DNA of 64,000 nucleotides from Aeriscardovia sp. (GTDB taxonomy: Bacteria > Actinomycetota > Actinomycetes > Actinomycetales > Bifidobacteriaceae). Under the pieces are notes generated by a model. That model was not told the origin of the DNA. It saw only the letters and a list, made by a program, of their open reading frames with translations, and ran no database searches. The stretch covers positions 1 to 64,000 of the forward strand of contig JAGCPN010000007.1 of the NCBI GenBank assembly GCA_017965665.1. Reading direction: 5' to 3'. The first letter of the stretch is position 1. Every line of letters starts with the position of its first letter. Below are positions 12,876 through 40,913 of the stretch, piece after piece. A program made the position numbers and the translations under genes.

Positions 12876-15290
12876 TTATAACAGCTGCCTTTTTTCCATG
12901 TACTTCATATAAAGGGCCCCCAGCGCCATCCTCAGCCAGTAGGTAGCGAGGCGGAAAAGCAGGGTGGCGGAGACTGCTATGGCGCTCGGCACCCCCACTC
13001 CTATAAACGTCGTAGAGAGCACCGTCTCTATGGCCCCCAGGCCTCCCGGAGTGGGGACGGCCGACCCGATCCCGTTTGCAAAGAGGAACAAAAAGAGGGT
13101 CTCTATAAAGTTCAGGTGGTAGCCGAAGGCCAAAAGGGAGAACCAGAAAGCCATGTCGAGGGCGGTGTTCTGGATGACAGATCCCATCATGGAAATCAGA
13201 AGGGTCACGGGGTGGGAGAGGAGCTTTCCTAGCATCGATCCGTAGGACTTTAAAACCGGAAGGCACTTCTTCTTTATCCAGTTGCGCACGGGCCGGATGG
13301 CCATGGAGAGCGCCACGAGGCCGACCAGCACTCCGACCGCCACGATGATGATCATTTTATTGGGGATGAGGTTGTGGAAGACGTTTTGGCCGGTGAAGAA
13401 GCCCAGGACTATAAACATGAGGAAGGTGGTGGAAAACTCCGTGACAGTGTCTGCGCTGGCTATGGCCGTGGCCTCGGTATTTTTGTATCCGATCTTTCTG
13501 AGAAACGTGATGTTTACGGCTATCGGCCCCGCCATAGCCGGCATCGAGACTGCTGCAAAGCTCGCCACTGCCTGGGTGCCCAAGATCCCCAGGTGATGCC
13601 TTTTCCGTTTCGCCTTGTCTATAAATACCCCGAACGCGATCCCAGATCCCGTCCACGCGAGAAGCCCTATGGCGCAGGCCGCCAGCGACCACCACGGATT
13701 GGCCCCCTCTATGGCCTTTATTACCTGCTTGAAGTTGAGCTGGGTGAAGACCACGACGAGGGCTATCGTCACCAGGAGGACCGTGATGAAGCGCCTGAGG
13801 TTGAAGCGGGCGAGGCGGACGGTCTGGAGCATCTGATCCTCTTGCCTGGCCTCTTCGTCCAGAGCCGTCTTGATGGGCTTTAGGACTTTCTTTCTCCACC
13901 CTTTTCCCTTTTTCGTGGCTTTGGGGATGACGATCCTCTGGGCGTAGGGGGAGAGGAGGGCGAGCGCTTGGGATCCTAAGACTTCTTTTGCGGCGGCCAT
14001 CGTCTCTTCTACGCCGGTCAGAGTGGCAAAGAGGGCCAAAAGCTGGATCATGTCTATTCTTTTGTGGGCAGGACTGGAGATCATGTCTCCCCCGGACCAA
14101 CCCACCAAAAAGAGCCGCCCCTGCGCATCTCTGGCCAAAGAGAGGGGGGAAATGTTTCGGTGTGTGAGGCCTTTTTCATGCATGGAGTGCAGAGAAGAGA
14201 TGAGGCCCTTCAAGTCCTCTTGGGAAATAGATCCGCGCTTTGGCCTCTGGGGGGGATCGGGGGGCACTTCAAAGACGATGAAGGCCGAATCGGATACTGA
14301 GCCCAGCCTCGCCGGCCGCGGGCCCCCGCCCCCGAGGTTTTCGAGCGCCATCAGGACGGCGTAGTGGTGTTCGGCCATGGCCACTACAGACCTTTCGCGC
14401 CTTATCGTCAGCCCCTCCATTTTTATGGCGTCCCACATCTGTTCCAAATACCTGAGGGAGTGCTGCTGCTCGTCATTTACGGCCATGAGGTAGGATTTGC
14501 CGCCGGAGGTGAGAGAGTAGTACCTCGAGCGCCTCGCTCCGTCGCAGCAGATCTCCTGCCACGCTTCGGGCTCTATCCTCTCCAGCTTTTCCACTTCCAT
14601 TCCGCATCCCGCCAGGGCCGAGGCGAGCTGCGAACCCCACGCCCCGGATCCCGGGGTCCCGAAGGCGAGCCTGAAGGCGAGGCCGATCCAAGCCCCCATG
14701 AATATGGCCATGAGCGCCGCAGGGACGGTGGAAAGCGATGCTATCACCACTATCGCCAGGGTCGCGTAGTACACTTTCCACGCCCACCCCAGCTTGTTTC
14801 GCATGCTCCTTCCGTTTGAAGCCGTGAGGAAGGCCATGACGGTCAGAGAGGCGTCGAAAGTTCCCGCCCGAAACGATACCCCTCCCCCTACAAAGCTTTC
14901 CATCCGGTAAAGGGAAAAGAGGTGGGAGCATACGATTGAGACGCAGAACCCCCCTATCAGGGCCAGGGCTGAAGTCAGGGAGGGAATCCACATCTTCTTG
15001 GACAGGAGCTGTATGAAGACCGCAATGACGACGAGGGAGAGGACCAGGTTGAACAGGAGGGAGAGGGGGAGGAGGACCAGCCAGGAGAAGGGGTAGGAGA
15101 CCCTCTGCACATCGCTCTCTATGCTGTTTGTGGTGGTTTTCAGAAGAAGTGAGCTGACTACTACCAGCGCGGCGAGAATCAGGAAGAGGGCGAGTTTTGC
15201 CAGATCCCCCCAGTCCCTTATCCGCTTGGGCGCATAGTCAAAAATTTCAGGGGATTTTGCCGCCTCGGCCGCGGGCTTTTGCGCTACCAC
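12876..15290 (-). CDS. Flippase/synthase-like (LPG synthase TM, UPF0104) protein with degenerate kinase-like middle domain
   Basis: Large (804 aa) multi-spanning membrane protein. Residues about 25-215 give six to seven helices and residues about 225-470 are soluble. From about 505 to the end lies the UPF0104/lysylphosphatidylglycerol-synthase transmembrane domain, with SMPAMAGPIAVNITFLRK and PTPGGLGAIETVLSTTFI as characteristic loops. The middle part has kinase-like traces: GLTHRNISPLSL at about residue 374 sits where HRDxxxxN would be, and GWSGGD where DFG would be, so the catalytic Asp is absent. No MprF-type transferase domain is present. It starts at GTG 15290, overlapping the end of the upstream gene. 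A role in envelope lipid or undecaprenyl handling is inferred only. Confidence 0.78.
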   Translation of the reverse strand: MVAQKPAAEAAKSPEIFDYAPKRIRDWGDLAKLALFLILAALVVVSSLLLKTTTNSIESDVQRVSYPFSWLVLLPLSLLFNLVLSLVVIAVFIQLLSKKMWIPSLTSALALIGGFCVSIVCSHLFSLYRMESFVGGGVSFRAGTFDASLTVMAFLTASNGRSMRNKLGWAWKVYYATLAIVVIASLSTVPAALMAIFMGAWIGLAFRLAFGTPGSGAWGSQLASALAGCGMEVEKLERIEPEAWQEICCDGARRSRYYSLTSGGKSYLMAVNDEQQHSLRYLEQMWDAIKMEGLTIRRERSVVAMAEHHYAVLMALENLGGGGPRPARLGSVSDSAFIVFEVPPDPPQRPKRGSISQEDLKGLISSLHSMHEKGLTHRNISPLSLARDAQGRLFLVGWSGGDMISSPAHKRIDMIQLLALFATLTGVEETMAAAKEVLGSQALALLSPYAQRIVIPKATKKGKGWRKKVLKPIKTALDEEARQEDQMLQTVRLARFNLRRFITVLLVTIALVVVFTQLNFKQVIKAIEGANPWWSLAACAIGLLAWTGSGIAFGVFIDKAKRKRHHLGILGTQAVASFAAVSMPAMAGPIAVNITFLRKIGYKNTEATAIASADTVTEFSTTFLMFIVLGFFTGQNVFHNLIPNKMIIIVAVGVLVGLVALSMAIRPVRNWIKKKCLPVLKSYGSMLGKLLSHPVTLLISMMGSVIQNTALDMAFWFSLLAFGYHLNFIETLFLFLFANGIGSAVPTPGGLGAIETVLSTTFIGVGVPSAIAVSATLLFRLATYWLRMALGALYMKYMEKRQLL

Positions 15291-15856
15291 GGCTTTGTCA
15301 CCTTCTGGCTCTGGGGTACGGCCGTAGACGAATCGGCCGTAGAAGAGGGGTTCTGGGTGTTGGAGGACAGAAGGGTGTTGAGCTTTTGCTGGTTGTCTGC
15401 CTCGTTCTGCCTCTGCTGGGTTATCTGGGTCCGGTTTTGGGTGGAAGCGGAGGAAGAGGAAGGTGAAGCGCTGCCCGATCCGCCGGGAGACGACTTGTAG
15501 CGCAGATCTATCTCCTGGCTTACCTGGTTGGCGATCTGTATGGCTTTTGCTATGGCGCTTTTGGTGGAGGGCAGCTGGAGGGCGGAAGTCTCCTGCTCCT
15601 GGTAGAGCTGGGAGAGTACATGGGCCTGGGATTCTTTTAAGGAAGCCAGGTTGGGGTTGTCCAGCTGCAGCGCGAGGATGTCGCTTTTCAAAAGGGCCGA
15701 AGTCCCCTCAAAGTTTTTTGCCACGCTCCAGTTGAGGAAGAAAAAGTAGGTGAGGAAAGCCAGCGCAATCCCGCCGCACGCGGCCAGTATCCCCCTCCAC
15801 TTGGGCAGTTTCGTCCTTCCGCTGCGCCTGAGCCGCCCTTCTTCCCTCTTTCTCAC
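15284..15856 (-). CDS. Single-pass membrane protein downstream of the VWA genes (DUF6466-like)
   Basis: 190 residues with a basic N-terminus (VRKREEGRLRRSGRTKLPKW), one transmembrane helix (about residues 25-45) and an extracytoplasmic Ser/Gln/Asn-rich tail with helical segments. The start is taken as GTG 15856 because it overlaps the upstream stop as GTGA, like the other genes of this operon. A frame extension to 15898 would run well into the upstream gene. It resembles a family I remember as DUF6466 in bifidobacteria, but that assignment is uncertain. It is the sixth gene after moxR and probably works in the same envelope-associated complex. Confidence 0.7.
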   Translation of the reverse strand: MRKREEGRLRRSGRTKLPKWRGILAACGGIALAFLTYFFFLNWSVAKNFEGTSALLKSDILALQLDNPNLASLKESQAHVLSQLYQEQETSALQLPSTKSAIAKAIQIANQVSQEIDLRYKSSPGGSGSASPSSSSASTQNRTQITQQRQNEADNQQKLNTLLSSNTQNPSSTADSSTAVPQSQKVTKPW

Positions 15857-16887
15857 TGGTATTTCCTTTGCTTGAAAATATCCGATCCGCATTCCCACAG
15901 GAGGAGTGCGGCTATGACTATTGCCAGGGGCCAGACTTGGATATTGCGCATGGAGTGCTTGCGATCCGTCTCCTGCACCAGGAAGCGGTGGGAGACGTAA
16001 GCGGAAAGCGAGGCGGCCGTGGTGGTCTGGTCCAGGTGCAGATAGGTGCCCGAAAACTCGTCTGCGATTTCTTTCAGGTTCTGGGGATCCAGTTTGGAAA
16101 TGGCGGGGGTATTGCTTCCGGGCTCGTCTAAGTACTTGGGGTTGGATTCGCCCTGCCCGCTGGACAGATCCTGAGGCGAGATGAAGGGGACCTTTCCTCC
16201 CTGCACGCTCCCCACCCCGAGCGCCGCTCCCGCATCCACGAACTGGCGCAGGGGGCTGAAAGACGAAGCCTGAACGTCCCGGGTCTGCTCGCCGTCCGAG
16301 ATGTAGTAAAGAACGATGATGTTGTTGGGGTATTGCTTGTGGACCTTCTGCATAGCCAAAAGCAGGGTGTCTACAGGCTCGCTTAGCTGCGTGCCGTTGG
16401 AGGCGTCAGTGGGCTCCACCGCGAGAACCTGGAGCCAGTTTTGAACTGCCCCCACGTCAGTGGTGGGAGGAAGGGCGAGGGTTGCGGAAGCCCCGAAGGT
16501 CACCCCCGCAAACGCCGCCCCGGGATACATGGACACCAGGTTTTCCACCGCATCTTTGGCGGCGTCAATTCTGGGTATAGCGGCGGCAGAGCCGTAGTGG
16601 GCGTCGTCTACCGCCATGGAGCCCGTGACGTCTACGGCGAAGAACACGTCGGTGTCGGATACGGCGTTGGAGGAAGAAGAGGTGATGATGGTGGGGCCGA
16701 GAGTCAAAAGGATCGCAAAGATCGCTATCAGCCACCGCCTCAGCCAGTCTAAGTGCGTGGCGTCAGAGGAATTTCTGTGCCTCCAAAACATCCAAAACCC
16801 CGCACCGCAGCAGACGAGGATAAGGATGTCTAAGGCGACGGTTAAAAACCAGCTGTGCAGAAGGGGAGTAAAGGCCAATCCGCTCAC
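15853..16887 (-). CDS. VWA-domain membrane protein (BatA/BatB-like), second copy
   Basis: 344 residues: an N-terminal hydrophobic segment (FLTVALDILILVCCGAGFWMF), a second helix near residue 55, a von Willebrand A domain with MIDAS motif DVTGSM at about residue 85, and a C-terminal helix before KQRKYQ. The topology matches aerotolerance-type Bat proteins with the VWA domain outside the membrane. The start GTG 16887 overlaps the upstream stop (GTGA), and the downstream gene starts the same way, so the set is translationally coupled. It is paired with another VWA protein and a MoxR ATPase, a standard chaperone-like metal-dependent system. The client is unknown. Confidence 0.88.
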   Translation of the reverse strand: MSGLAFTPLLHSWFLTVALDILILVCCGAGFWMFWRHRNSSDATHLDWLRRWLIAIFAILLTLGPTIITSSSSNAVSDTDVFFAVDVTGSMAVDDAHYGSAAAIPRIDAAKDAVENLVSMYPGAAFAGVTFGASATLALPPTTDVGAVQNWLQVLAVEPTDASNGTQLSEPVDTLLLAMQKVHKQYPNNIIVLYYISDGEQTRDVQASSFSPLRQFVDAGAALGVGSVQGGKVPFISPQDLSSGQGESNPKYLDEPGSNTPAISKLDPQNLKEIADEFSGTYLHLDQTTTAASLSAYVSHRFLVQETDRKHSMRNIQVWPLAIVIAALLLWECGSDIFKQRKYQ

Positions 16888-18029
16888 CTCCTAACCCAGC
16901 CCAAAAGGAGGAACAAAAGGCAGATAAGGCCTACAAGCACTATCACCCAAATGTCCGGATTGTCGGTAATGTCCACGGTCGGCTCTTTTGTCTGCTGGCG
17001 TATCTTCTGATCCTCTATGTTTTGCACCAGTTCCTCAACCGACTGGCCGTTTTGCCTGGAAAAGAAAGATCCTCCTTCCCAGTCGACCTGCTGCTTGAAA
17101 GCTACGGCATCCGGAGTGGAGAGGTTGGAAGTTTCCCCTATGTACAGGCCGTCTACCCTGATGGAATTGAGTTTTGCCAGCCTCATGGCCTGATGGAGGG
17201 TATAGACGGGGCGCCCCGCCAAAATGTTGTCGGTGGCAAGGACTATGGAGGCCGGGGCCACCCTGGCCTGCGTAGTCTGGGCAGAGGCGGAAAAGCCCGG
17301 GAACATATTTTCGCAGCTCACCAGCCCGTCTCCTATAAGGGAGCTGGACCCCTTCATGTTGTCCGTTCCCGACAGGAAATTGTTAATGTCCTGGTACTGC
17401 TGCGTAGTCATGTTGTTTATGCTCGTCTGGTTGACGACGCCTTTGAGCGCCGTGAGGGCGCTGTTTAGCTCGCTTGTCACGAGGCTGTAGTCGTTGGTCA
17501 GGGGAAAGACGGTTTTAGAGGTTGAGTTGAATATGCTCATGCCAATCCTTTCCGTCTTGAACTTTGAGACGAGCTGCAGGTAACTGGCTATGACCTGCTC
17601 GTCGAATGGCAGCGCCGATCCGGACACGTCCAGGCACAGGACGATGTTTCTCGAAATGCTGGAAGTTTCCAGCTTTTCGATGGAGCTGGGGCGCGAAACC
17701 AGCCCCATGGCGCATCCGAAGGACAAAAGCGCGAGGGTAGTGCAGGAGACTACCAGGGCTTTGTAGGTCCTGTACTGGCTCCATGCCGTCCCCTTCAGGC
17801 GGGTTTTCAAGCCCCAGCTAAGCAGCTTTATCCCGGGGGTCTGCTTTCTGTGCTTGTTGCCCAAAGCCTGAAGAGTAGTCTTCAGCCTCTCTTTGGAACT
17901 GAGGACTTTGGCGGCATCGGGCTTCAGGTATTTGCGCCTGGTGAACCAGAAGACGACTGCGAGCAGGATCACAAGCAAAATCCCCCCGACAAGCAGCGCC
18001 CACGGCCACCTCAGGACAATTCCGCTCAC
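16884..18029 (-). CDS. VWA-domain membrane protein (BatA-like), first copy
   Basis: Two N-terminal hydrophobic helices (about residues 8-27 and 90-110), a VWA domain with MIDAS DVSGSALPFDE at about residue 133 (the expected DxSxS), and a C-terminal helix ending LLFLLLGWVRR. The start is taken as GTG 18029, which overlaps the previous stop as GTGA and has AGGTGG 6-7 bases upstream. GTG 18038 is three codons earlier and also possible. This protein and the following VWA protein both begin with GTGAGCGG. Member of the MoxR operon. Confidence 0.87.
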   Translation of the reverse strand: MSGIVLRWPWALLVGGILLVILLAVVFWFTRRKYLKPDAAKVLSSKERLKTTLQALGNKHRKQTPGIKLLSWGLKTRLKGTAWSQYRTYKALVVSCTTLALLSFGCAMGLVSRPSSIEKLETSSISRNIVLCLDVSGSALPFDEQVIASYLQLVSKFKTERIGMSIFNSTSKTVFPLTNDYSLVTSELNSALTALKGVVNQTSINNMTTQQYQDINNFLSGTDNMKGSSSLIGDGLVSCENMFPGFSASAQTTQARVAPASIVLATDNILAGRPVYTLHQAMRLAKLNSIRVDGLYIGETSNLSTPDAVAFKQQVDWEGGSFFSRQNGQSVEELVQNIEDQKIRQQTKEPTVDITDNPDIWVIVLVGLICLLFLLLGWVRR

Positions 18030-29200: not shown

Positions 29201-30639
29201 TGACCGGCTGCTCGCATATGAAGCTGGGCGGGAGGCTGGCAATGTTTGCTACTTTGCTGGGCTCCGCCTTTTTCTGTCTGTTCAATGAGACGCTGCTTTC
29301 GGTGGGAGACGACGTCCTCATGCGCCGCTTCAACCTGAACTATGTCACCGTGCAGTGGACGATGGGAGGGTTTTTGGTGGCCATGAGCGTCACCGTCCCC
29401 CTCCTAGCCTTCTTCATAAAGGGGTACTCCACGAAACTGGTAGTGTCTCTCGCCCTTTCCTTCTGCTGCGCGGGGCTCGCCATAGACTTTTTCAGCCCTT
29501 CCTTTTGGATTCTCATAACCGGCAGGGTGATAGAGGGGCTCGGAGCCGGATTTATAACCCCCCTCCTGTTTTTCTCGGCCCTCACCCTCTTTTCGCCCAA
29601 ATACCGGGGGCACGTGATTTCCATCTGCGGGATAGCCTGCGGGCTGGGGCCCTCCCTGGCCCCGAGTTATTCGGGGGCCATCTTGAACGCCGGAGCCGAC
29701 TGGCACTTCATCTTCCTTTTCCCTTTTGTGGCCTGCTTCGCGCTCCTGTGCCTTTCCCTGTTTTTTGTGAAAGACATTTCCCCGCATCTCTCCCCTTCGC
29801 CCGACGGCCTTTCGGTCCTCGAGACCCTTTTAAGCTTCCCGTGCCTGATAATCGGCATAGAGCTCTTGGCCGACAAAAACCTGTGGGGCCTGCTGCTTTT
29901 GGCCGTAGGCCTCTTGGCCGGAGGAGCCTGGATTTTGAGGCAGTTCAAGCTGGGGCGCAGGAAGTCTGAGGGCGTCCTTGTGGACCTTTTCTCCATCGCA
30001 AAAAAGCCCATCCTTTTGGGGCTTCTTTTAATTTTCTGCCTCCAAATCGCAAATATGTGCCTGTCGGTGGTCTATCCTCTGGCAATAGAGCCGGCCTTCC
30101 GGCTCTCTCCGGCCGCCGCCTCCTCCATGCTCATGGCGCCTCTGGCGATTTCCCAGGTTTTCGCGCTCCTGGCGGGAAAGATTTACGACCGGTGGGGGGC
30201 AAAGTCCCTCCTCTTTTCGGGATTTTCCCTCATGTCCGGAGGCTTTTTCGCCCTTTCCCTGCAGAGGCGCGTATTTGGCGGCGGAGTGGCGTTTACCTTC
30301 ATTTTCGCCCTCCTCTGCTTTGTGGGAGTGGCTTTGAGCACCCTGGCCGTAGAATCTCACATCTTTTCTCTCCTGCCTTCCAAAACGGCCGATCTGTCTA
30401 CGGCCGAGCAGGAGAGCATGCAGATAGGCGGGGCTGTGGGAAGCGCGGCGTGCATGGCGATCTTCCAGGCGTGCGACCCCGCCTCGGCTCCGCCCCAAAG
30501 CTACCTTTCCGCCTTCTCCAGCCTTTCGATCGTTATGACCTGCCTTTACATTTTCTGCCTGGCCGTCAGCTGGGCGCTCTTGTTCCCTAGAAAAGGGGGG
30601 AAAAATGCAAAAACTTGCAGTAGTTGTGACCACGTATAA
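29200..30639 (+). CDS. Major facilitator superfamily drug-exporter-like transporter
   Basis: 479-residue membrane protein with roughly 13-14 hydrophobic helices, resembling DHA2 (EmrB/QacA) transporters. The early segment NETLLSVGDDVLMRRFNLNYVTVQWTMGGFLVAMSVTVPL is characteristic of that family. Motif C-like GLGPSLAPSYSGAI lies in helix 5. The start overlaps the clpC stop (TGATGA region); ATG 29218 is an alternative start nearer to the first helix. It overlaps the glycosyltransferase start by 35 bases, so the three genes are probably transcribed together. Substrate unknown. Confidence 0.87.
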   Translation: MTGCSHMKLGGRLAMFATLLGSAFFCLFNETLLSVGDDVLMRRFNLNYVTVQWTMGGFLVAMSVTVPLLAFFIKGYSTKLVVSLALSFCCAGLAIDFFSPSFWILITGRVIEGLGAGFITPLLFFSALTLFSPKYRGHVISICGIACGLGPSLAPSYSGAILNAGADWHFIFLFPFVACFALLCLSLFFVKDISPHLSPSPDGLSVLETLLSFPCLIIGIELLADKNLWGLLLLAVGLLAGGAWILRQFKLGRRKSEGVLVDLFSIAKKPILLGLLLIFCLQIANMCLSVVYPLAIEPAFRLSPAAASSMLMAPLAISQVFALLAGKIYDRWGAKSLLFSGFSLMSGGFFALSLQRRVFGGGVAFTFIFALLCFVGVALSTLAVESHIFSLLPSKTADLSTAEQESMQIGGAVGSAACMAIFQACDPASAPPQSYLSAFSSLSIVMTCLYIFCLAVSWALLFPRKGGKNAKTCSSCDHV

Positions 30640-31558
30640 AAGAAACGAGCTTTTGAAAAAGCTCCTGGATTCTTTAAAGCCCGAACGGCCCTGGAAAGTG
30701 GTGATTGTAGACAACGATCCCGATGGCGGCGCGGCCTCCCTCTGCCTGCCGTTTAAAGAAGAAATGGAGAGGGAAGGCGTCGGAACCGAATACCTCCCCC
30801 AGAGGGAAAACCTCGGCGGGGCGGGAGGGTTCTGGGCCGGAATGAAAAGGGCGTATGAACTGGGGGCAGAGTGGTTTTGGCTCATGGACGACGACGTGCA
30901 AATCCTGCCGGGAGCCATAGAGAAGCTGGATAAGTGGACATCCAAAAGCCCGATGGTGCAGGGATCTCGCCTCAACGCCGACGGGACGCCCTTCTATTGG
31001 CAGTACAGGTTCGTCGTGCCTCTGGCCGTTCCCAACCCCTTTGCAGCCAAAGACTGCAGGCCTTTCAGGCAGGCCAATACCTGCTGCTTTGAGGGAGTAT
31101 TGGTGAAACGGGAACTTGTCAGGCGCATAGGCTTTCCGGATCCCAGGTTTTTTATCTACTGGGACGACACCACTTACGGGTACCTGGCTTCAAAAGTCTG
31201 CAGGCCAATCGTAGTGCCCGACCTCATTTTGCAGCGCACCCGCGCCATCAACAATTTGAAACTGTCGGGAAACAGGCGCCTCAACTCCACTTCCGACCTC
31301 AACCGCTACTACATAATGCGAAACCGCGGGTATATGATGCGCTACCTCTCCCTCTTCGGAGACTTCGACCCCCTGCTCTTCGGGCTCGGAACTTTCTTCA
31401 CTTTTCTGAAGGAAGTCGTGAGGATTGCAGTTTTGGATCGCAGGCCGGAGGCTTTCCCCCCCTTAGTGAAGGGGTGGGCGGATTCCAGAAAGATCATGAA
31501 AGACCGATCCTGGAAGCCGGCAAGGGCGATGCAAAAAAAGAGTTTGGAAAAAAGTTAG
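30605..31558 (+). CDS. Family 2 glycosyltransferase, galactofuranosyltransferase-like
   Basis: 317-residue GT-A glycosyltransferase. It shows AVVVTTYKRNELL at the N-terminus, NLGGAGGFWAGM near residue 68, and the metal-binding FWLMDDDVQ at about residue 95. The WDDT segment (FIYWDDTTYGYLA) is the usual acceptor-side acidic motif. This combination (GGAGGF plus MDDDV) is typical of GlfT/rhamnosyl-type GT2 enzymes used for cell-wall or surface polysaccharides. The start overlaps the end of the transporter gene. It is the last core-like gene before the AT-rich accessory island, and no terminator is visible after it. Confidence 0.88.
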   Translation: MQKLAVVVTTYKRNELLKKLLDSLKPERPWKVVIVDNDPDGGAASLCLPFKEEMEREGVGTEYLPQRENLGGAGGFWAGMKRAYELGAEWFWLMDDDVQILPGAIEKLDKWTSKSPMVQGSRLNADGTPFYWQYRFVVPLAVPNPFAAKDCRPFRQANTCCFEGVLVKRELVRRIGFPDPRFFIYWDDTTYGYLASKVCRPIVVPDLILQRTRAINNLKLSGNRRLNSTSDLNRYYIMRNRGYMMRYLSLFGDFDPLLFGLGTFFTFLKEVVRIAVLDRRPEAFPPLVKGWADSRKIMKDRSWKPARAMQKKSLEKS

Positions 31559-31586: not shown

Positions 31587-31862
31587 TTACTGGCCCTGCT
31601 TGTCCAGTTCCTCCCAGTTCTGAAGATAGGCAAAGCCGTTATCTTGGGATTTGTAGGTCAGCTTGACGGTTATGGGGAAAGTGTTTTTTCCTGTGGTGTG
31701 GAATCTGTAGCTCCTCATAACAAGCATCCCTATAAAGGAGTCCAGTTGTTCATTTGGAAGCAAATAATCAGCGTGCTGCTTTAAAAGCTGCTCGGAAATG
31801 GCTTTGAGCAAGCCTTCTATGCTGTGGTAGGCATGGGCAATGGTTATTGTTGTTTCACTCAT
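31587..31862 (-). CDS. Hypothetical 91-residue protein at the end of the accessory island
   Basis: Not recognised. The frame begins at ATG 31862 with AGGAAG five bases upstream, so it is probably a real gene. The N-terminal half is helical (HAYHSIEGLLKAISEQLLKQHADYLL). The C-terminal half looks like beta strands (TFPITVKLTYKSQDNGFAYLQNWEEL). No signal peptide or membrane segment is seen. It lies on the same strand as the ATPase-helicase gene and about 220 bases after the broken coiled-coil gene, so it could be a third member of that operon or an unrelated small gene. Confidence 0.6.
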   Translation of the reverse strand: MSETTITIAHAYHSIEGLLKAISEQLLKQHADYLLPNEQLDSFIGMLVMRSYRFHTTGKNTFPITVKLTYKSQDNGFAYLQNWEELDKQGQ

Positions 31863-32084: not shown

Positions 32085-32911
32085 CTAAATAAACTCGCCT
32101 TCTTTCAGATCCGGAAAGGCTTCTGCGATCTTGGCCATTTTCCGCTCCCTTATTTCGCTGTTTTCAATGTCGGATATCTTATGTGACAGCTCTTTTAAAT
32201 CTCTCCTGTTTGAATCCAGCTCTTTTTCTTCTGTTTGTATTTGCGAGCGCAGTTTGTCGATTTTCCTAATGCGCCCTTTTATTCCTTACACGAGTGCATC
32301 TACGTCCACGGATTCAAGTTGCCTTTGCACGGCAAAATGCATTGCCCTTTCGCGTTCCTCCTCCTTTTCCTCCGCGAGTTCGTCTCTGGATCTGGCAAGG
32401 TCTGCGAGCCTGTCGTACTGCTTGTTTGCAAGCGCCTCTTCATACGCCGCCTCAGCACTGTCCAACTCTTCTTGCCTTGAGAAGGGAGGGAGCGACGGAG
32501 GGAGGGAAAAATGGGCCGGGGCTCAAAGGCGCTTTGTGGCAGCGGCTTTTGCCTTAGCGAAGGTCGCGAAAGGGGGATGCCGTCCCTCTCGCAGTTCTCG
32601 TAAAAACGGTCAATGATAAACTGGGCGACTTCCACCTTGTCTTCCCGGCTCATCCCCATCTCAAATCCCCGGTTGGAAAAATAAGAGTCGGCTTCTTCCA
32701 GGGCTGCGCAAAACTGGGAATAAGCGTGGCCCGGTGAGACCTGGGTATAGGTTTTTGTGTTGGCTCTGCCCAGGGTCGAATCCAAGGCCCAGCTTATATG
32801 TGCCAGATTTGTACCTGTAGTGCCTGTCCATCTGCGATTGCAGTTAAGCATATTTTGGAACAGAGGCATAGATCTGAGGGTGGGATAGTCATTTATGTCT
32901 ACTTTGGGCAT
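32085..32911 (-). pseudogene. Broken coiled-coil companion gene of the ATPase-helicase
   Basis: Not recognised as a known family. It starts at ATG 32911 with an excellent AAAGGAG site, 23 bases after the helicase stop. The first frame is coherent for about 118 residues (MPKVDINDYPTLRSMPLFQN ... FYENCERDGIPL). After a frameshift around 32480-32530 (a pyrimidine-rich CCCT repeat stretch), a different frame is clearly coding: EELDSAEAAYEEALANKQYD, rich in Glu, Ala and Lys. It then meets an in-frame TAA at 32286-32288. Beyond this the same frame continues as a coiled coil (IRKIDKLRSQIQTEEKELDS ...) to TAG 32085-32087. Intact, it would be about 275 residues. Either decayed or carrying assembly errors. 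Confidence 0.65.
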
Positions 32912-32934
32912 ATTTCTCCTTTTTTACGCCTGCT

Positions 32935-34152
32935 TTAGCCCTTAACCCCGGAGGGGTGGAGCTGGATGTCGACGGCATCATCTTCAGCCCGGACTTCGTA
33001 CTGCTTTTCAGGCAAATCGTAGACATTTACATCCTGATGGCCTGTAGAAAAGACATTATTTTCCAAGTAGTCGCTTTGGCCAAACAGCAGCTTTTCAAGA
33101 TCGCAAGCCAAGAATTGGGAGCATTTTCCGTTCTTTTTCATTAAGCTTTCGATCTGCCTTATGCGTATCAGGTCTTCCACTCCATCCGTCTCGTCGTCGG
33201 GCATAATGACAAATAAATAATCCCTGGCTCGGCTTACAGCCACGTTAAGAATATTCATCTTGTTCAGAAACGTCTTAGAAGAACTGGGGTTTTTGGGCGG
33301 GTTGAATACAACGAAAATGATGTCGCATTCATCGCCCTGGAATTTGTGTATTGTACCCGCCTGAATCTTTATTTCTTCAGGGATTTTTTCCCGGCTTATA
33401 AGTTTGTCCATTATATCCGCCTGCGCTCTGTAGGGAGATATTACCCCGATCGAGACGGGAGTGCCTGGATTAAACTGGGAAATTTTGTCCGCAAGAAAGC
33501 GAATATACTCCACGGTCAAAAGGGCAGAGTAAATCTGGTAGGGACTTTCCTGCAGCTTTTTTACCTGGTAGATGCTTTCGTACTTTCTCACAGGATACTT
33601 GATTATGTTCAGCGGACTAATGCCGAGGCTTTCAAGGTGAAGGTCTTTCCTTTTTTCAAAATTGCGGTCATGTTCCAGCATTCCGTTATAAGCAAAATTA
33701 GAGAAAACTTCTCCAATTTCCGGAATTGATCTGTACTGGCGGCTTAAGGGTACAACTGTGTAGGGGTGCGGAATAGTGGAAGGATTTTCAAAGGAGTTCA
33801 GCTTTACCAGGCTGTAGATATTTTGATCCTTCCATTCGTTTCGCTTCACTATGGGTTCGATTTGGAAGGGGTCGCCAGCGATAATAAATTGCTTTGGCTT
33901 TTGCTTGTAAAGCAGAAAAACGATGTCTGCCAAGGGAATCATGGAGGCCTCATCGACTACTATGTAGTCCCACTCTACGTCTTTTAGGTATACTTCTTTT
34001 CTTCTACTCGAAATTAAGTAGTCATATGGGAACCTGGCTATCGTCGTAACGGCTACACATTTTTGTATAGAATCTATATCTAAGTTCTTTTCTCGAAAAA
34101 CGGGGCTTTTTCTATTTCTGCGTCTTCGGTAGTACCTATACGGGCAAGCCAA
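32935..34152 (-). CDS. UPF1-like SF1 helicase, C-terminal half of a frameshifted ATPase-helicase gene
   Basis: Continuation of the preceding large gene in another frame. Meaningful coding begins near 34098; the first 15 residues of the open frame are the shadow of the upstream one. It contains helicase motif II as VVDEASM, motif III as IIAGDPFQIEPI, motif IV region PLSRQYRSIPEIGEVFS, motif V GTIHKFQGDECDIIFVV and motif VI NVAVSRARDYLFVIMPDD. This order and the AGDPFQ and QGDE forms are those of AAA_11/AAA_12 (DNA2/UPF1-like) helicases. The end (VFSTGHQDVNVYDLPEKQYEVRAEDDAVDIQ) carries no added nuclease that I can recognise. The gene lacks its own start and needs the N-terminal part to be complete. 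Confidence 0.82.
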   Translation of the reverse strand: MACPYRYYRRRRNRKSPVFREKNLDIDSIQKCVAVTTIARFPYDYLISSRRKEVYLKDVEWDYIVVDEASMIPLADIVFLLYKQKPKQFIIAGDPFQIEPIVKRNEWKDQNIYSLVKLNSFENPSTIPHPYTVVPLSRQYRSIPEIGEVFSNFAYNGMLEHDRNFEKRKDLHLESLGISPLNIIKYPVRKYESIYQVKKLQESPYQIYSALLTVEYIRFLADKISQFNPGTPVSIGVISPYRAQADIMDKLISREKIPEEIKIQAGTIHKFQGDECDIIFVVFNPPKNPSSSKTFLNKMNILNVAVSRARDYLFVIMPDDETDGVEDLIRIRQIESLMKKNGKCSQFLACDLEKLLFGQSDYLENNVFSTGHQDVNVYDLPEKQYEVRAEDDAVDIQLHPSGVKG

Positions 34153-37100
34153 TCATTATACGAATCGTCGTTTCCGGAGACTTGCATAATCTTTTTTACC
34201 AATACGTCGGCAGCTTTATTGGTAGGAGTTAGCACAAGTACTTTGCAAGAATCTTCCTTTTCCATTAAAGGGCGAAGAATTTCTTTTGCAAGATAAGTAG
34301 TCTTGCCGGTGCCTGGAGGGCCTACAAGAAACTCGATGTTTTCACAAAGGTTCTGTTGCATATTAAAGTCGTCCGGAAGATCCAGATTCGCAAATTGTTC
34401 CGTTAAAGTATCAAGTAGAAAGTCAGGATTTTTTACATCAATAGTGGCGTACGTGACCTTTGAAAAGTCGATTCCTTTGATCTGCTCTTCTGTTTTTGCC
34501 TTTACCCTAAGCGTGTTGCCTTTTACACTAACCACCTCAATTTCAGGGCTGCGAGTCTTCCCATTTTCCATATGCAAATCAAGGGGAATATTAGGAATGT
34601 CCTCTATCGACTGGGGTATATACCTATTAGGACGTCTTAGGATAATTGTTCGGGGGGAGGCAGGATCGGGATCTTTTTCAACTTTGGAAAAACTGATGCT
34701 CACTTCCGGCTTTCGGGAAGATAGGCCCTCTTTTTCTAGGGAAAGAAGCGCCTTGAACCACCCAAAAGAGTACTTGGGAAGCTTGGAGGCGTTAGTTACC
34801 TTTTCCCTTAACTGGTTGAGGCTTTCAATCTCAGATTGTTTCTTTTGTATGTTTTTGTCTATGGAGTCGGAATCTAATGAGTTATCTTCTTCCTGCTCAT
34901 CATTTTCATCCGAGTAGGAAGATGAAGAAGTTGAAACCGTGGAGGGAAGAAGCGTAGTTTTGTGAGAAGACGGAGATGAAAATTCGTTTCCCTTTGGAGC
35001 GGCAATGTTTTCTGTGGATTCAGCAGAAGGAAGGGTGTCGCGGGGAGAATCTTCATTTGCGATTTCTGCATTTTCCCTAACTTGTTCTTCTCCTTCTTCT
35101 CCCTGTTTTTTTAAATTTTCAATCATCGCAAGTGCCCCGGCAAGTGCCTTGCGCTTTTGTTTAGGAGGCAGCTGATCTAATTCAGCCATCAATTCTTCTG
35201 TAGGAGATTTAGCTGGAGTTTTGATTGCAAAAATCTCTAAAAGTTTTGGAGAAGGATCATAATCATCTACACTTTCCGGATCAAACTTTTCATTTTTTGT
35301 GTAGTTCCAGGCCAACTTCCTAAGTTGCGTTTCAACCTCGGATGCATACAGCTCAACTTGATCGCGACGATAGAACCAATGATGCTCCCCGGACGGAAAG
35401 CGATTTTTAGATCCGTAAAATACACTATCCGTCCCGATCTTCCAATCTCCAGAGAAAGAGTAATAAGTCGCTTTTTCTAGCAGTTTTTTCATTTCTTCCC
35501 ATAGAAGTTTTGCTTTGCTTCGGTTTTTCTGGAGTATTTTTGCTATTTTATCCTTTTCATCATTGGAATAATAATTATCATCAATTAATTCGGACAGATC
35601 GCAAGAAGGCATTCCTTCGATAAATTTATTAAGTCCGTCTATTTGAGGTTCTAGCCATATGTTGTAGCTCCAGGAAGGCTTCCAGTTCGCATCTTCCAAA
35701 GTGTCAGGATCTCGCACGCAATAAGAAACTTGAGGGTCTACTTTTACTCCTAAATCTTTTAGAAAGTCTTCTAGAAGATCCTTATTGGGTTGTTCGCCTA
35801 TTATCTGCACATATTTTTTTTCTGATACAAAGTGGGTAGAGGGCGAATTGGCAAACCACTCTTTTAGTTCTGGAGTGGGAAGATAAAGTTCATTTGCTTT
35901 TGCTCTATGCCACTGTCCATCGGGATCGCAGTACGTTAAGAAGCTGCACTCCTTCAAAAGATCTATAAATTTTTCCTCTCGATGACTGCAGTAATAATCG
36001 AAAAATAGCTTGAAATTCTTATGGGACGTTTCAATACTGATATTTGAATTTGCATCAGTATCTTTGTATAACGGAATAACTTTGTTATAAATATAGTCAC
36101 CCCAGGAGGGGGTTGTAATTCCTATACTACTAAAAAAGTTCTTTAATTCCTCTTTATCCCAAAGAGATTGTGCCAAATAATGGTATTCATCGTCGGTTGT
36201 TACATCAGAAGGCAGAAATAAGACCTCCATTCCTTTTTCGTCAAACGCAGACATGGCATGTCCGTGCTGATCCAGAAAAATAGGCAGTCTTTTAGCCTTT
36301 CTGCGACGATCTTTATCTTCATCAATCCATTTATAAAAATCTATCAACCACTCAATTGATTGAGCTTCAATGAAAGGGGCAGTGATTTTATCGAGAATGT
36401 CTAACTCACTAAGATGCTGATGGGTAACAGCATCTATAAATTCTCTTATATCCCTTTCATCTTGGGTCAGAGATCCGTGAGTATCCCTACTAATGGATGG
36501 AAAGGCCCATTTAGCCTGGGGGTCGCCACAAAGCTGTTCCAATTGCTCATTGCTGAACAAATCTGTCATTTTGCTTGACGCGGCCCAATAAGCATGCGGC
36601 TTGGAGGTGTATCCCTTTCTGGAAGGAAGCACGCTCTCGGTTTCGAAAATTTTCTTTGTATCTTCATAAAACGGAGCCCACATACTCCATGAATAGTAAG
36701 GTTTTTTATAAGGAATGATTGAAAGTATGTGGTCGTCTACTAAGCGATTTTCCTTGTCTTCCCCAATCTGCTTTAAAAGCACAATAGATTCAGCTGCCAA
36801 ATCTGCCAGCAGTTTTATCATTTTCTCGTTGTGTGGTTCATATCGCTTTATGCTTTCGCGACTGTTGGTAAGCAGGAACGGGGCCTGTACTATAAAGTGA
36901 AGATCGGTTTCCTCTTTTGTCGGGAAGAAACAAAAGGCGGGCATATCGACAGGGCAAAGGCAAGTCTTACCATCTCTTTCTTCCAAAAAGAAGCCGACAG
37001 AATACTTATTCTCCTCTTCATCCTCGCGCGTAAAGAGCCAAAGCCTGTTTTGGTTCTCGCTATCTCCGAACCTGTTTGTGCAGCAAATTAATTCTGCTGT

Positions 37101-37838
37101 AATATCTTCAAATTGACGCGAGTCCTCTATTTTTTTCTGATAAATCCCTTCGGCATTGCCTATCGCGTATCGTATTTCCCGCAAATGAGGCAGGAAAAGC
37201 AGAGGATAGGAAAGATTTTGAAGCTTGGAAGATATATCCTTAGTGGCCTGCTCGGGAGTTTTATCAGGACTGTCGAAAGGAAGCATGAAAAGGGTTTCAT
37301 CCGCCCTTCTGCCTGTAAAATCCTCTTCCAAAAGACCGGGTACAACAAGTCTTTCAATCCTAAACTTAAATTTGTTGTCATAAATGCGGGGATTTCTGGT
37401 ATATGTGTAAATAGACTTAATTCCTACCCCGTATTTTCCTATTTTATTTTGGTCATTTTCCTTAGTTGAAGCTCCCCAGGCGGTAATGGCATTGATATCG
37501 CCAAGAGGCTTTCCCTTTTCGTCCTCGTCGACATCGGTTACAGAAAAATGTCTGGATCCATTATGGGCAAATATTAGATATTTATTAGGCTCAAGAATAA
37601 ATCTTGCTTTCTCTGCCTTCGCGTCATCGGCATTTTGAAGTAACTCATAGATAAAGTGCGCGACATCGGAATATTTGTCAGCCATATCCCTGCTGGCGCC
37701 CCTCATAGAACGCTTTTCTATAACTCGTGCATTTTCTTTTCTGTCTTCAACAAGTTTTTCAAACAGTTTTAGCTCATCCTGGCTCATCATAAGGCTAATC
37801 TTAGGAGTTGTACGGTTCTCGTTGCAAGGTTCATGCAT
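34080..37838 (-). CDS. GHKL (sacsin/NO VEIN-like) ATPase fused to SF1 helicase, N-terminal part of a frameshifted gene
   Basis: Large cytoplasmic protein, visibly AT-richer than all flanking genes. A GHKL/HATPase domain lies at about residues 45-170: the N box is FIYELLQNADDA (about 67), FAHNGSRHFSVTDV replaces the DxGxG box, and GKYGVGIKSIYTYT is the glycine-rich lid (about 138). A long middle region follows. A Ser/Glu-rich low-complexity linker follows at about 950-1020. The helicase Walker A GPPGTGKTTYLAKEIL sits about 80 residues before the stop, with motif Ia LTPTNKAADVL. The frame then breaks at 34088-34100; one extra A in the AAAA run would join it to the helicase half, giving about 1,630 residues. 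The start is uncertain: ATG 37838 or ATG 37790; no good Shine-Dalgarno is seen. Function is unknown, defence likely by analogy. Confidence 0.8.
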   Translation of the reverse strand: MHEPCNENRTTPKISLMMSQDELKLFEKLVEDRKENARVIEKRSMRGASRDMADKYSDVAHFIYELLQNADDAKAEKARFILEPNKYLIFAHNGSRHFSVTDVDEDEKGKPLGDINAITAWGASTKENDQNKIGKYGVGIKSIYTYTRNPRIYDNKFKFRIERLVVPGLLEEDFTGRRADETLFMLPFDSPDKTPEQATKDISSKLQNLSYPLLFLPHLREIRYAIGNAEGIYQKKIEDSRQFEDITAELICCTNRFGDSENQNRLWLFTREDEEENKYSVGFFLEERDGKTCLCPVDMPAFCFFPTKEETDLHFIVQAPFLLTNSRESIKRYEPHNEKMIKLLADLAAESIVLLKQIGEDKENRLVDDHILSIIPYKKPYYSWSMWAPFYEDTKKIFETESVLPSRKGYTSKPHAYWAASSKMTDLFSNEQLEQLCGDPQAKWAFPSISRDTHGSLTQDERDIREFIDAVTHQHLSELDILDKITAPFIEAQSIEWLIDFYKWIDEDKDRRRKAKRLPIFLDQHGHAMSAFDEKGMEVLFLPSDVTTDDEYHYLAQSLWDKEELKNFFSSIGITTPSWGDYIYNKVIPLYKDTDANSNISIETSHKNFKLFFDYYCSHREEKFIDLLKECSFLTYCDPDGQWHRAKANELYLPTPELKEWFANSPSTHFVSEKKYVQIIGEQPNKDLLEDFLKDLGVKVDPQVSYCVRDPDTLEDANWKPSWSYNIWLEPQIDGLNKFIEGMPSCDLSELIDDNYYSNDEKDKIAKILQKNRSKAKLLWEEMKKLLEKATYYSFSGDWKIGTDSVFYGSKNRFPSGEHHWFYRRDQVELYASEVETQLRKLAWNYTKNEKFDPESVDDYDPSPKLLEIFAIKTPAKSPTEELMAELDQLPPKQKRKALAGALAMIENLKKQGEEGEEQVRENAEIANEDSPRDTLPSAESTENIAAPKGNEFSSPSSHKTTLLPSTVSTSSSSYSDENDEQEEDNSLDSDSIDKNIQKKQSEIESLNQLREKVTNASKLPKYSFGWFKALLSLEKEGLSSRKPEVSISFSKVEKDPDPASPRTIILRRPNRYIPQSIEDIPNIPLDLHMENGKTRSPEIEVVSVKGNTLRVKAKTEEQIKGIDFSKVTYATIDVKNPDFLLDTLTEQFANLDLPDDFNMQQNLCENIEFLVGPPGTGKTTYLAKEILRPLMEKEDSCKVLVLTPTNKAADVLVKKIMQVSGNDDSYNDWLARIGTTEDAEIEKAPFFEKRT

Positions 37839-37861: not shown

Positions 37862-39019
37862 ATGGCAAGATTTTCCAAAAGATCCGATACCGGCCGCTTG
37901 AATGTCATTTCGCAAGAAGAGCTCAAAATCGGCAAGATTGCCCAGCTAAACGATTCCAACCCCACTCATTTCGGGTTGGGGATTAAAAAATTCGGGGAGT
38001 ACGATCCGAATCCTAAGGGAGGTCCGGGGGCGAGGGAGGCTTTAGCAAAGTTTTTGTCCAACAGGAAGGACAGAATTTCCCCCCTCTTTCTTCCGCCTTC
38101 CCCTGAGCGGCTTTACCTTATCTCTTCCACCTCGCAGGGCTACAGCTGGCTTATGAAGCTCCTTTGCGATCCCGGAGACAAGATCGCCTACCCCTCCCCC
38201 GGCTACCCCCTGATCCCTTCCATAGCCAGGATAGAGGGGGTGCAGGCCGTGCCCTACTTCCTCCGCTTCGACGGGTCCTGGTACATAGACCTCCCCTCGG
38301 TAGAAGGGGCGCTTTCAGATCCGGATGTGAAGGCCCTGGTCCTGATCCACCCAAACAACCCCACGGGGAGCTACGTTTCCAAAGAGGAGTTTAAGGAAAT
38401 AAGCGGGATGTGCAGGGAAAAGGACGTCGCCCTGATATGCGACGAAGTCTTCTACGACTACGGCTTTGCCACCGGCCTTCCCGGAAGGATCTCGGGAACC
38501 GCCGAAGCCCTGACCTTCGCGCTCGACGGCTTTTCCAAGCTCCTCGCCTCCCCGCAGATAAAGACCGCGTGGATTGAAGTGTCGGGAGGGGAAGAGGAAG
38601 TGGCGGAGGCTGAAGCGCGGCTCGACTTTATAGCCGACAGCTTCCTTCCAAACTCGTGGTTCCAAAACGAATCCACTCCCGGGCTGCTTGAAATGGCTCC
38701 CAAAAAGACGGAGGAAGTGAGAAAGAGGGCCGAAGACAACCTGAAAGTGCTGAGGAAGGCTTTTTCCGGAAAAGATCTCGCCTCCTCCCTCATAGAGCCC
38801 CAGGGGGGCTGGAGCGCCCTGGTCAGGTTCGCCTCCACCATAGATGAAGACGCCCTGGTAACGGAGCTGATCAGGAAATACGCGCTTTCGGCCCAGCCCG
38901 GGTACTTCTTCGATATGCCCTTCAACTGCGTCGCCGTCTCGCTTCTGCCTTCTGTGGGCGTCAGCGAGTCTAGAATTAAAGTGCTAATCGAGGCTATCGA
39001 GGCTTTGAGCCGAGAGTGA
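37862..39019 (+). CDS. PLP-dependent class I/II aminotransferase
   Basis: 385-residue fold-type I enzyme. Characteristic features are PNPKGGPGAREALAKFL, ISSTSQGYSWLMKLLCDPGD near residue 85, HPNNPTGSYVSKEEF near 165, ICDEVFYDYGF near 193 and the PLP lysine in DGFSKLLASPQIKTAW at about residue 224. Substrate is not predictable; it resembles amino acid aminotransferases of the AspC/alanine branch. It starts only about 24 bases from the divergent ATPase-helicase gene, so both promoters must share or overlap this short AT-rich interval. GAAAGG lies upstream of the ATG at somewhat long spacing. It is followed by two nucleoside hydrolases, the first overlapping or abutting its stop. Confidence 0.9.
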   Translation: MARFSKRSDTGRLNVISQEELKIGKIAQLNDSNPTHFGLGIKKFGEYDPNPKGGPGAREALAKFLSNRKDRISPLFLPPSPERLYLISSTSQGYSWLMKLLCDPGDKIAYPSPGYPLIPSIARIEGVQAVPYFLRFDGSWYIDLPSVEGALSDPDVKALVLIHPNNPTGSYVSKEEFKEISGMCREKDVALICDEVFYDYGFATGLPGRISGTAEALTFALDGFSKLLASPQIKTAWIEVSGGEEEVAEAEARLDFIADSFLPNSWFQNESTPGLLEMAPKKTEEVRKRAEDNLKVLRKAFSGKDLASSLIEPQGGWSALVRFASTIDEDALVTELIRKYALSAQPGYFFDMPFNCVAVSLLPSVGVSESRIKVLIEAIEALSRE

Positions 39020-39030
39020 TTAGGGGTGAA

Positions 39031-39975
39031 ATGAAACACGTAATTTTGGATTGCGACCCGGGCCACGACGACGCGCTGGCGCTCTTCATGGCCATGGGCG
39101 ATCCCGATATAGACCTCATGGAGGTCACGACCGCCGGCGGGAACCAGAGCCTGGAGAAGGTGACGAAGAACGCCCTCTCCCTGATAGAGCTGGTAGGGGA
39201 AAAGGTGCCCGTATATTCGGGCTCCCTGACCCCGCTCGTGAAGGCTCCCAAGTGGGCAGGCTACATCCACGGGGAATCGGGCCTTGACGGGGTGAAGCTG
39301 GATTCGCCCAAGACCGAGGTGGCAGGAACGGACGCGGCAGCCGAGATAGTCAGGACGATAATGGATCATCCCGACAAGTACGTCACCCTGATTACGACCG
39401 CCCCCCTGACCAATATCGCCCTGGCCGCGCTCCTGGAGCCCAGGATCTGCAGCAGGGTAAAGGAAGTCATAATGATGCTGGGCGCCGTACACACGGGAAA
39501 CGTCACCCCCGTGGCCGAGTTCAACGCCTACACGGATCCCGAAGCCGCCAAGGTGGTCTTTGAAAGGGAGTGGCCCATAACGATGATCGGGCTCGACGTC
39601 ACCCACCAGGCCATCTGCACCAGGGATGTGCAGGCCAGGCTCGCCGCCGCCAACCCGGGGCTCGCGGAAGTGGTAAACGGACTTATGGATTACTTCAGAG
39701 AATCCTATAAGGACGAAGAGTGCTTCCCCGATCCCCCCACCCACGACCCGTGCGCCGTGGCCTACGCCCTGGACCCCTCAGTGGTCAGGACCGTGAAGGC
39801 GCCCGTGTACGTGGAGACGAAAGGCGAAGTCACTTGCGGGATGACCGTGGCGGATCTGAGGGCGCAGGCCCCCAAAGACTGCCGCACCCAGGTAGGCCTC
39901 TCCCTCGACACAGAAAAATTCTGGAATATGGTGGCAAAAGACCTTGCCAATCTGAAAGTAGGAGGCAGGAAATGA
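39031..39975 (+). CDS. Inosine-uridine-preferring nucleoside hydrolase, copy 1
   Basis: Hydrolyses ribonucleosides to base and ribose for salvage. The N-terminal aspartate cluster is DCDPGHDDALALF. The NPEVD-like region is GDPDIDLMEVTTAGGN, and the C-terminal part keeps HDPCAVAYALDPS with the calcium-binding Asp. About 314 residues is the normal size. ATG 39031 is preferred because AGGGG precedes it; a GTG at 39016 overlapping the aminotransferase stop is the alternative. The second nucleoside hydrolase starts at an ATGA overlap with its stop. Confidence 0.92.
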   Translation: MKHVILDCDPGHDDALALFMAMGDPDIDLMEVTTAGGNQSLEKVTKNALSLIELVGEKVPVYSGSLTPLVKAPKWAGYIHGESGLDGVKLDSPKTEVAGTDAAAEIVRTIMDHPDKYVTLITTAPLTNIALAALLEPRICSRVKEVIMMLGAVHTGNVTPVAEFNAYTDPEAAKVVFEREWPITMIGLDVTHQAICTRDVQARLAAANPGLAEVVNGLMDYFRESYKDEECFPDPPTHDPCAVAYALDPSVVRTVKAPVYVETKGEVTCGMTVADLRAQAPKDCRTQVGLSLDTEKFWNMVAKDLANLKVGGRK

Positions 39976-40913
39976 AAAAGCTGATACTGGATCTGGACAC
40001 CGGCATTGACGACACTTTGGCCATGTCTCTGGCCATGGCGAGCCCGGAAGTGGATCTGATAGGCATTATCGGGACTTACGGGAACGTGTACATGGACCAG
40101 GGCCTCAGAAACGACCTGGCCATAACCGATCTTTTCGGCAAGAAGATCAAAGTCTACCGCGGGCTGGACCACGCCCTGAAGAAGGACTCTTTTGAAGTGA
40201 TGGAAATTTCCTCCTTCATCCACGGCAAAAACGGGATAGGCGAGTGCCAGATAGAAGAGTCGGAAAGGATCCCCGAAGAAGAGGACGGCATAGACTTCCT
40301 CATCAGGGCCGCACACGAGTACAAGGAAGATCTGATCTACGTCCCCACCGGCCCCCTCACCAACCTCGCCGCCGCCCTGCAGAAAGACCCCTCCATAAGC
40401 TCCCTCATAGGCAGGGTGGTCTTTATGGGAGGGGCGCTCACCGTCCCGGGGAACGTCTCGGACTGGAGCGAAGCCAATATCAACCAGGACCCCGACGCGG
40501 CGGACTACGTCGTAAAGCACATAGACTGCACCATGGTGGGCCTTGACGTCACCCTGCAGACCCTCCTGACTACAAAAGAGACGGCCAAGTGGAGGGAGCT
40601 GGGCACGCCCCGCGGAAGGTTCCTGGCGGATGTCACCGACTACTACATCAAGGCCTACGAAGTCACTTCCCCCGGCCTCGGGGGCTGCGGCCTGCACGAT
40701 CCCCTGGCTGTAGGCGTGGCGATATGCCCCGACCTCGTAGATTGCCTGCCTATAAACCTGATGGTTGAAACCGAGCCGCCGCTTCGCGGAAGGACCATAG
40801 GAGACGTCTCCAGGCTCTCTGACCCCGTCAAAAAGAACCGGGTCAGCGTCAGGGTGAAAAAGGAGCAGTTCCTGGATATGCTCGTCTCCAGGCTCTCCGG
40901 CCTGGCCGCCTGA
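39972..40913 (+). CDS. Inosine-uridine-preferring nucleoside hydrolase, copy 2
   Basis: 313-residue paralogue of the preceding gene, starting at the ATGA overlap. The catalytic/calcium motif is DLDTGIDDTLAMSLA. Downstream motifs are YVPTGPLTNLAAAL, VFMGGALTVPGN and GGCGLHDPLAVGVAI. The two copies are clearly diverged, so they probably differ in base or sugar preference. Only the ATG at 39972 gives a homologous N-terminus; the frame extends upstream but that part lies inside copy 1. The stop abuts the convergent acyl-CoA synthetase stop with no spacer, so no classical terminator fits between them. Confidence 0.92.
   Translation: MKKLILDLDTGIDDTLAMSLAMASPEVDLIGIIGTYGNVYMDQGLRNDLAITDLFGKKIKVYRGLDHALKKDSFEVMEISSFIHGKNGIGECQIEESERIPEEEDGIDFLIRAAHEYKEDLIYVPTGPLTNLAAALQKDPSISSLIGRVVFMGGALTVPGNVSDWSEANINQDPDAADYVVKHIDCTMVGLDVTLQTLLTTKETAKWRELGTPRGRFLADVTDYYIKAYEVTSPGLGGCGLHDPLAVGVAICPDLVDCLPINLMVETEPPLRGRTIGDVSRLSDPVKKNRVSVRVKKEQFLDMLVSRLSGLAA

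Follow-up and report, generated by a model that had tools for sequence, protein, structure and literature searches.

A Frameshifted Sacsin-Type GHKL ATPase-Helicase Gene in a Variable Site of Aeriscardovia and Its Relatives beside Restriction-Type Genes

Genes at the Locus

The stretch of Aeriscardovia sp. DNA analyzed here (the window, 64,000 nucleotides) carries on its minus strand a gene for a sacsin-type GHKL ATPase joined to a superfamily I (SF1) helicase, followed by a short companion ORF and lying between conserved glycosyltransferase and aminotransferase genes (table 1). The ATPase-helicase occupies two ORFs, 37868-34080 (1262 aa) and 34152-32935 (405 aa), which overlap by 73 bases. 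Because the homologue in the nearest relative, the MAG Aeriscardovia sp. RGIG7154 (G176, contig JAFYJT010000006.1), reads as a single 1615-aa frame (P0003, 5' end cut by the contig edge), the two ORFs are one gene carrying a frameshift. An earlier note on this DNA had proposed one gene with one frameshift and a repaired length of about 1,630 residues, and the one-frame homologue bears this out; that length is counted from ATG 37838. The first ORF extends without a stop as far upstream as TTG 37868, and alignment to homologues points to ATG 37790 as the likely start. The window gene and its relative share 53% identity in the first part and 70% in the second. A programmed frameshift was rejected, the relative being in one frame.

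Table 1. Features of the GHKL-helicase locus and its flanks in window coordinates.
Feature	Position	Strand	Basis or remark
GlfT1-like glycosyltransferase, conserved flank	30605..31558	+	
91-aa gene, no Pfam match, one edge of the variable site	31587..31862	-	in 7/7 genus genomes
Broken orphan "companion" ORF	32085..32911	-	frameshift near 32.5 kb, in-frame TAA 32286-32288
Remaining SF1B UPF1-class helicase and conserved C-terminal tail	32935..34110	-	
Overlap of the two GHKL-helicase frames (frameshift)	34080..34152	-	homology to the relative switches frame here
GHKL-helicase first frame (GHKL, middle region, linker, WFK region, helicase Walker A)	34080..37838	-	ORF and domain searches, homologue P0003
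Helicase Walker A, GPPGTGKTT	34296..34322	-	
Pre-helicase WFK region (KYSFGWFKALLSLE ... IDFSKV), found in fusion proteins	34380..34814	-	family alignment
Middle region common to TmtA-like proteins	34824..36731	-	PADLOC profile, family alignment, model
Sacsin-type GHKL (Bergerat) ATPase domain and adjoining region	36732..37676	-	domain search, sacsin SR1 nearest structures
Aminotransferase, conserved flank, divergent from GHKL-helicase	37862..39019	+	

The reality of the break was assessed by matching the ORFs of a sister contig (G179:C36) to the window. The conserved genes of the window gave single-frame matches without frame breaks, the four multi-frame rows of the comparison being antisense shadow ORFs or tandem nucleoside hydrolases, and the accessory segment carries three lesions within less than 6 kb; sequencing error is for these reasons an unlikely cause of the frameshift, and the comparison suggests real, recent decay of the accessory segment. 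Past the frameshift, mismatches to the relative still show a codon-position pattern (0.25, 0.16, 0.52), which points to a recent break. The Siphonobacter copy (L034) is also frame-broken, at about 11785 between the middle region and the helicase, at another place in the gene. The window also holds a tandem pair of nucleoside hydrolase genes (39016-40913, plus strand) that are ~30% alike.

The companion ORF had been put forward as a second gene with a strong Shine-Dalgarno and an extended coiled coil. Its position and start stand, with ATG 32911 lying 23 bases past the GHKL-helicase behind a good Shine-Dalgarno (AGGAGA), but the coiled-coil part sits in a different frame from that start and is itself split by the in-frame TAA, so that the product is coiled-coil-like only if read across both lesions. 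In the syntenic relative only 323 bases, without the companion, separate the helicase gene from the 91-aa gene, and DNA comparison found no remnant there. The companion is absent from six other genus genomes; 189 genomes of the family gave marginal matches only (best E 0.0096), the fetched homologue loci held only these same weak matches, and plasmids and viral contigs held no homologue. Since it is broken and absent from relatives, the locus is not a conserved two-gene operon. The companion was accordingly rejected as a conserved partner on its two lesions and its absence from the syntenic relative and the genus, and is by comparison a broken orphan private to the window genome. Neither the pair of the earlier note, whose first member is itself frameshifted, nor the constant company for which the note would have surveyed gene neighborhoods survives this comparison.

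Domain Architecture of the ATPase-Helicase

Domain searches match the N-terminus to Pfam SACS (7.5e-15) and to the NCBIfam sacsin ATP-binding model NF047352 (5e-20), and the C-terminus to AAA_11 and AAA_12 (2.1e-25), in accord with the GHKL ATPase plus SF1 helicase architecture read earlier from motifs. Those motifs (ELLQNADD, GKYGVGIKS, GPPGTGKTT, DEAS, QGDE, and SRARD) are all present. The N-box ELLQNADD and GKYGVGIKS are conserved in the family; DEAS, QGDE, and SRARD lie with GDPFQI in the second helicase part, after which the tail reads HQDVNVY...YEVR...AVDIQ. Among solved structures, those closest in sequence are sacsin SR1 domains for the N-terminal part and SEN1, IGHMBP2, UPF1, and Dna2 for the helicase. 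Structure prediction, which the earlier note had called for, agrees with this assignment. For the relative's protein, the C-terminal 635 aa were modeled with AlphaFold2 (mean pLDDT 84), and a fold search with this model retrieved Dna2, IGHMBP2, and UPF1 (E about 1e-24); a weaker N-terminal model (pLDDT 74, pTM 0.52) places sacsin SR1 at the top, with MutL and GyrB also matched. The linker closing the middle region, at about 34860-35105, has low model confidence and is probably disordered. Profile searches detected no nuclease domain in the fusion protein.

A Variable Site in Aeriscardovia

The GC content falls to 0.40-0.44 over 33-38 kb of the window as against mostly 0.55-0.60 around it, confirming the AT-rich segment described previously; the chromosome has a GC content of 57%, and the relative's copy of the gene 0.44. 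The earlier reading of an accessory insertion is borne out, and the genes on either side are conserved: the glycosyltransferase and aminotransferase flanks occur in 7/7 genus genomes, on separate contigs in RGIG7154. The gap between them is 6.3 kb in the window versus 0.8-2.1 kb in five other genus genomes, and the DNA that fills it differs from genome to genome. The 91-aa protein at its edge is conserved at 79-99% across the genus. One genome (G180, L059 725-1087) has a 36%-identical second copy beside this gene, plus a 162-aa ORF. Another (G179, L061 726-1304) has in the variable site a 193-aa ORF that is HNH-like by eye (EYDHIIPL) and found no Pfam match; a partial relative of this ORF is present in G177 (L058).

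Two genomes (G175, L060; G180, L059) retain a relic of 27-35 codons of the helicase C-terminus, the conserved tail being the only relic found. Its DNA identity of ~89-91% over 71-79 bases exceeds that of most flanking genes. The GHKL-helicase itself is present in only 2 of the 189 family genomes. The window segment is best read as an accessory insert that has decayed within a variable site of the chromosome of an Aeriscardovia-like member of the Bifidobacteriaceae, the GHKL-helicase being the one conserved gene that it holds.

The Fusion Family and Its Neighbors

An alignment search over one genome per species recovered 31 loci. Both the GHKL and helicase parts are present in 28 of these, including the RGIG7154 relative and the frame-split Siphonobacter copy; in L029, L038, and L039 the helicase part is not in the same ORF. 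Further fusion loci are two on plasmids, two on virus-collection contigs, and the window itself. Members come from six phyla (Actinomycetota, Bacteroidota, Bacillota, Spirochaetota, Myxococcota, and Pseudomonadota), and complete proteins are about 1,530 to 1,900 aa long. Most members retain the N-box, G2, Walker A, DEAS, QGDE, and SRARD motifs, as scored by simple patterns that miss variants, such that absences in the motif table do not represent losses. The tail following the helicase, HQxVNVYxxPxxxYEVRxExxAVDIQ, is conserved in many members; the proteins of L014, L016, L025, L026, L031, L033, and L037 have different C-terminal ends. A tree inferred by a quick method with midpoint rooting places the window copy and its RGIG7154 relative in a group of 11 members (99% SH-aLRT), which holds all five members linked to PDC-S68 and no member linked to restriction-modification (RM) genes.

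Type III mod/res genes lie upstream of the fusion gene in seven loci (L003, L004, L015, L027, L032, L034, and L076), with res directly adjoining it, and two of these (L027 and L032) have pAgo downstream. PDC-S68 adjoins the fusion gene in L016, L017, L025, L026, and L031, from Spirochaetota, Myxococcota, and Bacillota, the two being 15-95 bases apart or overlapping as ORFs. On a Hymenobacter plasmid (L004), PDC-S68 lies 8.6 kb upstream, before mod and res. The upstream gene of L014 joins T5orf172 and ResIII domains, and L035 has a kinase-like neighbor (PD-T4-6/mad6-type). The gene directly downstream of the fusion gene in L025 (at 14316-17309) encodes a protein with AEP-TOTE primase, DEAD helicase, and PLD-like domains. 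As raw counts, the adjacency is striking, and homologues beside type III RM, PDC-S68, and pAgo genes lend sequence-based support to the antiphage link suspected earlier. At more than half of the loci, including both Aeriscardovia copies, no known defense gene was found among the few neighbors scanned. The genes flanking the window copy are identified and are not mod/res, and the window's own genome gave no PDC-S68 match at E<=1e-5.

In the reciprocal view, seven of the eight best plasmid PDC-S68 matches were inspected, and a fusion gene was nearby in one, that of Hymenobacter; none accompanied PDC-S68 on the Rhizobium, Vibrio, Embleya, Bartonella, or Paracoccus plasmids. An obligate PDC-S68 pair was therefore rejected, plasmid PDC-S68 mostly lacking the fusion gene, and the link is a recurrent island association. 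On a Sphingomonas plasmid (L082 7330-17718), PDC-S68 is split into two ORFs, and the gene directly after it encodes a sacsin-domain protein of 1607 aa other than the helicase fusion.

Comparison with Named Systems

The earlier note had recognized no named system. By domain content the fusion protein is neither Tiamat nor Mokosh, and to this extent we agree, but it has recognizable kin in both. The PADLOC TmtA profile (PDLC03972) matches window residues 64-935 at 2.2e-53 and P0003 at 1.3e-54, with the sacsin-type GHKL and middle region in common. The TmtA-like proteins tested (L074, L008, and L029) end in a NO VEIN domain (PF13020), whereas the fusion family has the WFK region and SF1 helicase in its place, and NO VEIN was not found in P0003, L026, L033, or the window pieces. 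Assignment to Tiamat was rejected on this missing domain; judged by its domains, the family is a helicase-fused relative of TmtA. With Mokosh it shares a UPF1/MOV10-class SF1 helicase (PADLOC MkoA, 1.2e-26), a likeness limited to the helicase core, the fusion family having a GHKL N-terminus. Mokosh has a phospholipase-D nuclease, fused or adjacent; no PLD domain was found in P0003, L026, L033, or the window pieces.

PDC-S68, the recurrent direct neighbor in the window copy's own clade, is by contrast a separate protein with a RecD-like helicase and a possible C-terminal PD-(D/E)xK-like motif, seen by eye and with no Pfam call. PDC-x entries are unpublished PADLOC candidates (PMC11811056). GHKL ATPases of the MORC/paraMORC type recur in gene neighborhoods together with type III-like restriction helicases and nucleases, and a general role similar to the one proposed below has been argued for the MORC-type ATPases (Iyer et al. 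2008, PMC2292703); the helicases there are separate and of superfamily II, whereas the present family fuses its sacsin-type GHKL to one of superfamily I. In the open-access literature we found no paper on PDC-S68 by name and none describing a sacsin-type GHKL plus SF1 helicase as a defense system.

Proposed Role and Alternatives

We propose, at about even chances, that the GHKL-helicase is an accessory ATP-gated helicase of restriction-type defense, inactivated in this strain. In relatives, the fusion protein would serve as the accessory motor of such a defense. The GHKL part may be a clamp or switch, gated by ATP, through which the helicase is loaded or licensed on invading DNA (or RNA), and the helicase would then translocate 5'-to-3', opening or stripping the nucleic acid, a polarity and substrate suggested by its helicase family. 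Destruction would fall to a nuclease-translocase partner, either type III Res or PDC-S68, or at solo loci to nucleases of the host. In the window strain, the gene would have been inactivated recently, before visible loss of codon constraint. The adjoining mod/res, PDC-S68, and pAgo genes, the grouping of the window copy with the PDC-S68-linked members, the retained catalytic motifs, and the variable site with its relics speak for this proposal; the many loci without a known defense gene next door and the plasmid PDC-S68 genes that mostly lack this partner speak against it. The lack of a nuclease domain among the domains detected in the fusion is a further difficulty, since solo copies would then depend on a different effector; they would need host nucleases or else act alone like Tiamat. 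A broader reading, which we hold more tentatively, is that the fusions form an unnamed multi-phylum defense module. Its UPF1-class helicase, moving 5'-to-3', would be gated by an ATP clamp of Hsp90/MutL-like type, and its nuclease-translocase partners would be swapped by clade: type III Res, PDC-S68, and perhaps, at L014, a GIY-YIG-type SF2 helicase. Many members would meanwhile keep the conserved C-terminal tail.

Many loci are solo and partners differ between clades, as would be expected if the fusion were a self-sufficient single-protein defense like Tiamat, its GHKL or middle region sensing a phage product, its helicase being the effector, and its restriction neighbors mere island company. 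The strong match of the N-terminal half to TmtA (2.2e-53) and a TmtA-like relative adjoining Qat anti-phage genes also favor such a system. We nevertheless think it unlikely, although it is the most credible of the rivals, as the neighbors are directly adjacent and clade-specific beyond what loose island company would lead one to expect and no toxic or nuclease domain was found in the protein. It is less probable still that the protein serves not defense but DNA or RNA maintenance (repair, or R-loop or collision clearance) in chromosomes and mobile elements. The UPF1/SEN1/Dna2 class of the helicase would suit this function, as would RelA/SpoT, GyrB, and other housekeeping genes near some loci and a virus-collection copy near resolvase-, UmuC-type polymerase-, and transposase-like ORFs (by eye), but patchy presence (2/189 family genomes), a variable site with relics, and restriction, PDC-S68, and pAgo neighbors all argue against it. 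Very improbable, finally, is a working two-gene operon in which the coiled-coil protein works together with the ATPase-helicase and sequencing errors account for the breaks. The 23-base spacing and strong Shine-Dalgarno speak for it; against it are the companion's two separate lesions, its absence from the syntenic relative, the genus, and the fetched homologue loci, and the unbroken frames of other conserved window genes.

GHKL ATPases with helicases are a recurring and poorly explained theme in bacterial immunity. The fusion family has both engines in one chain and is tied by adjacency to type III restriction and to the unnamed candidate PDC-S68, and its loci are a concrete, testable set. 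In Aeriscardovia, a genus of small genomes, an accessory defense-type gene comes and goes at one site, where it is found unbroken in one genome, broken in another, and as a scrap in two.
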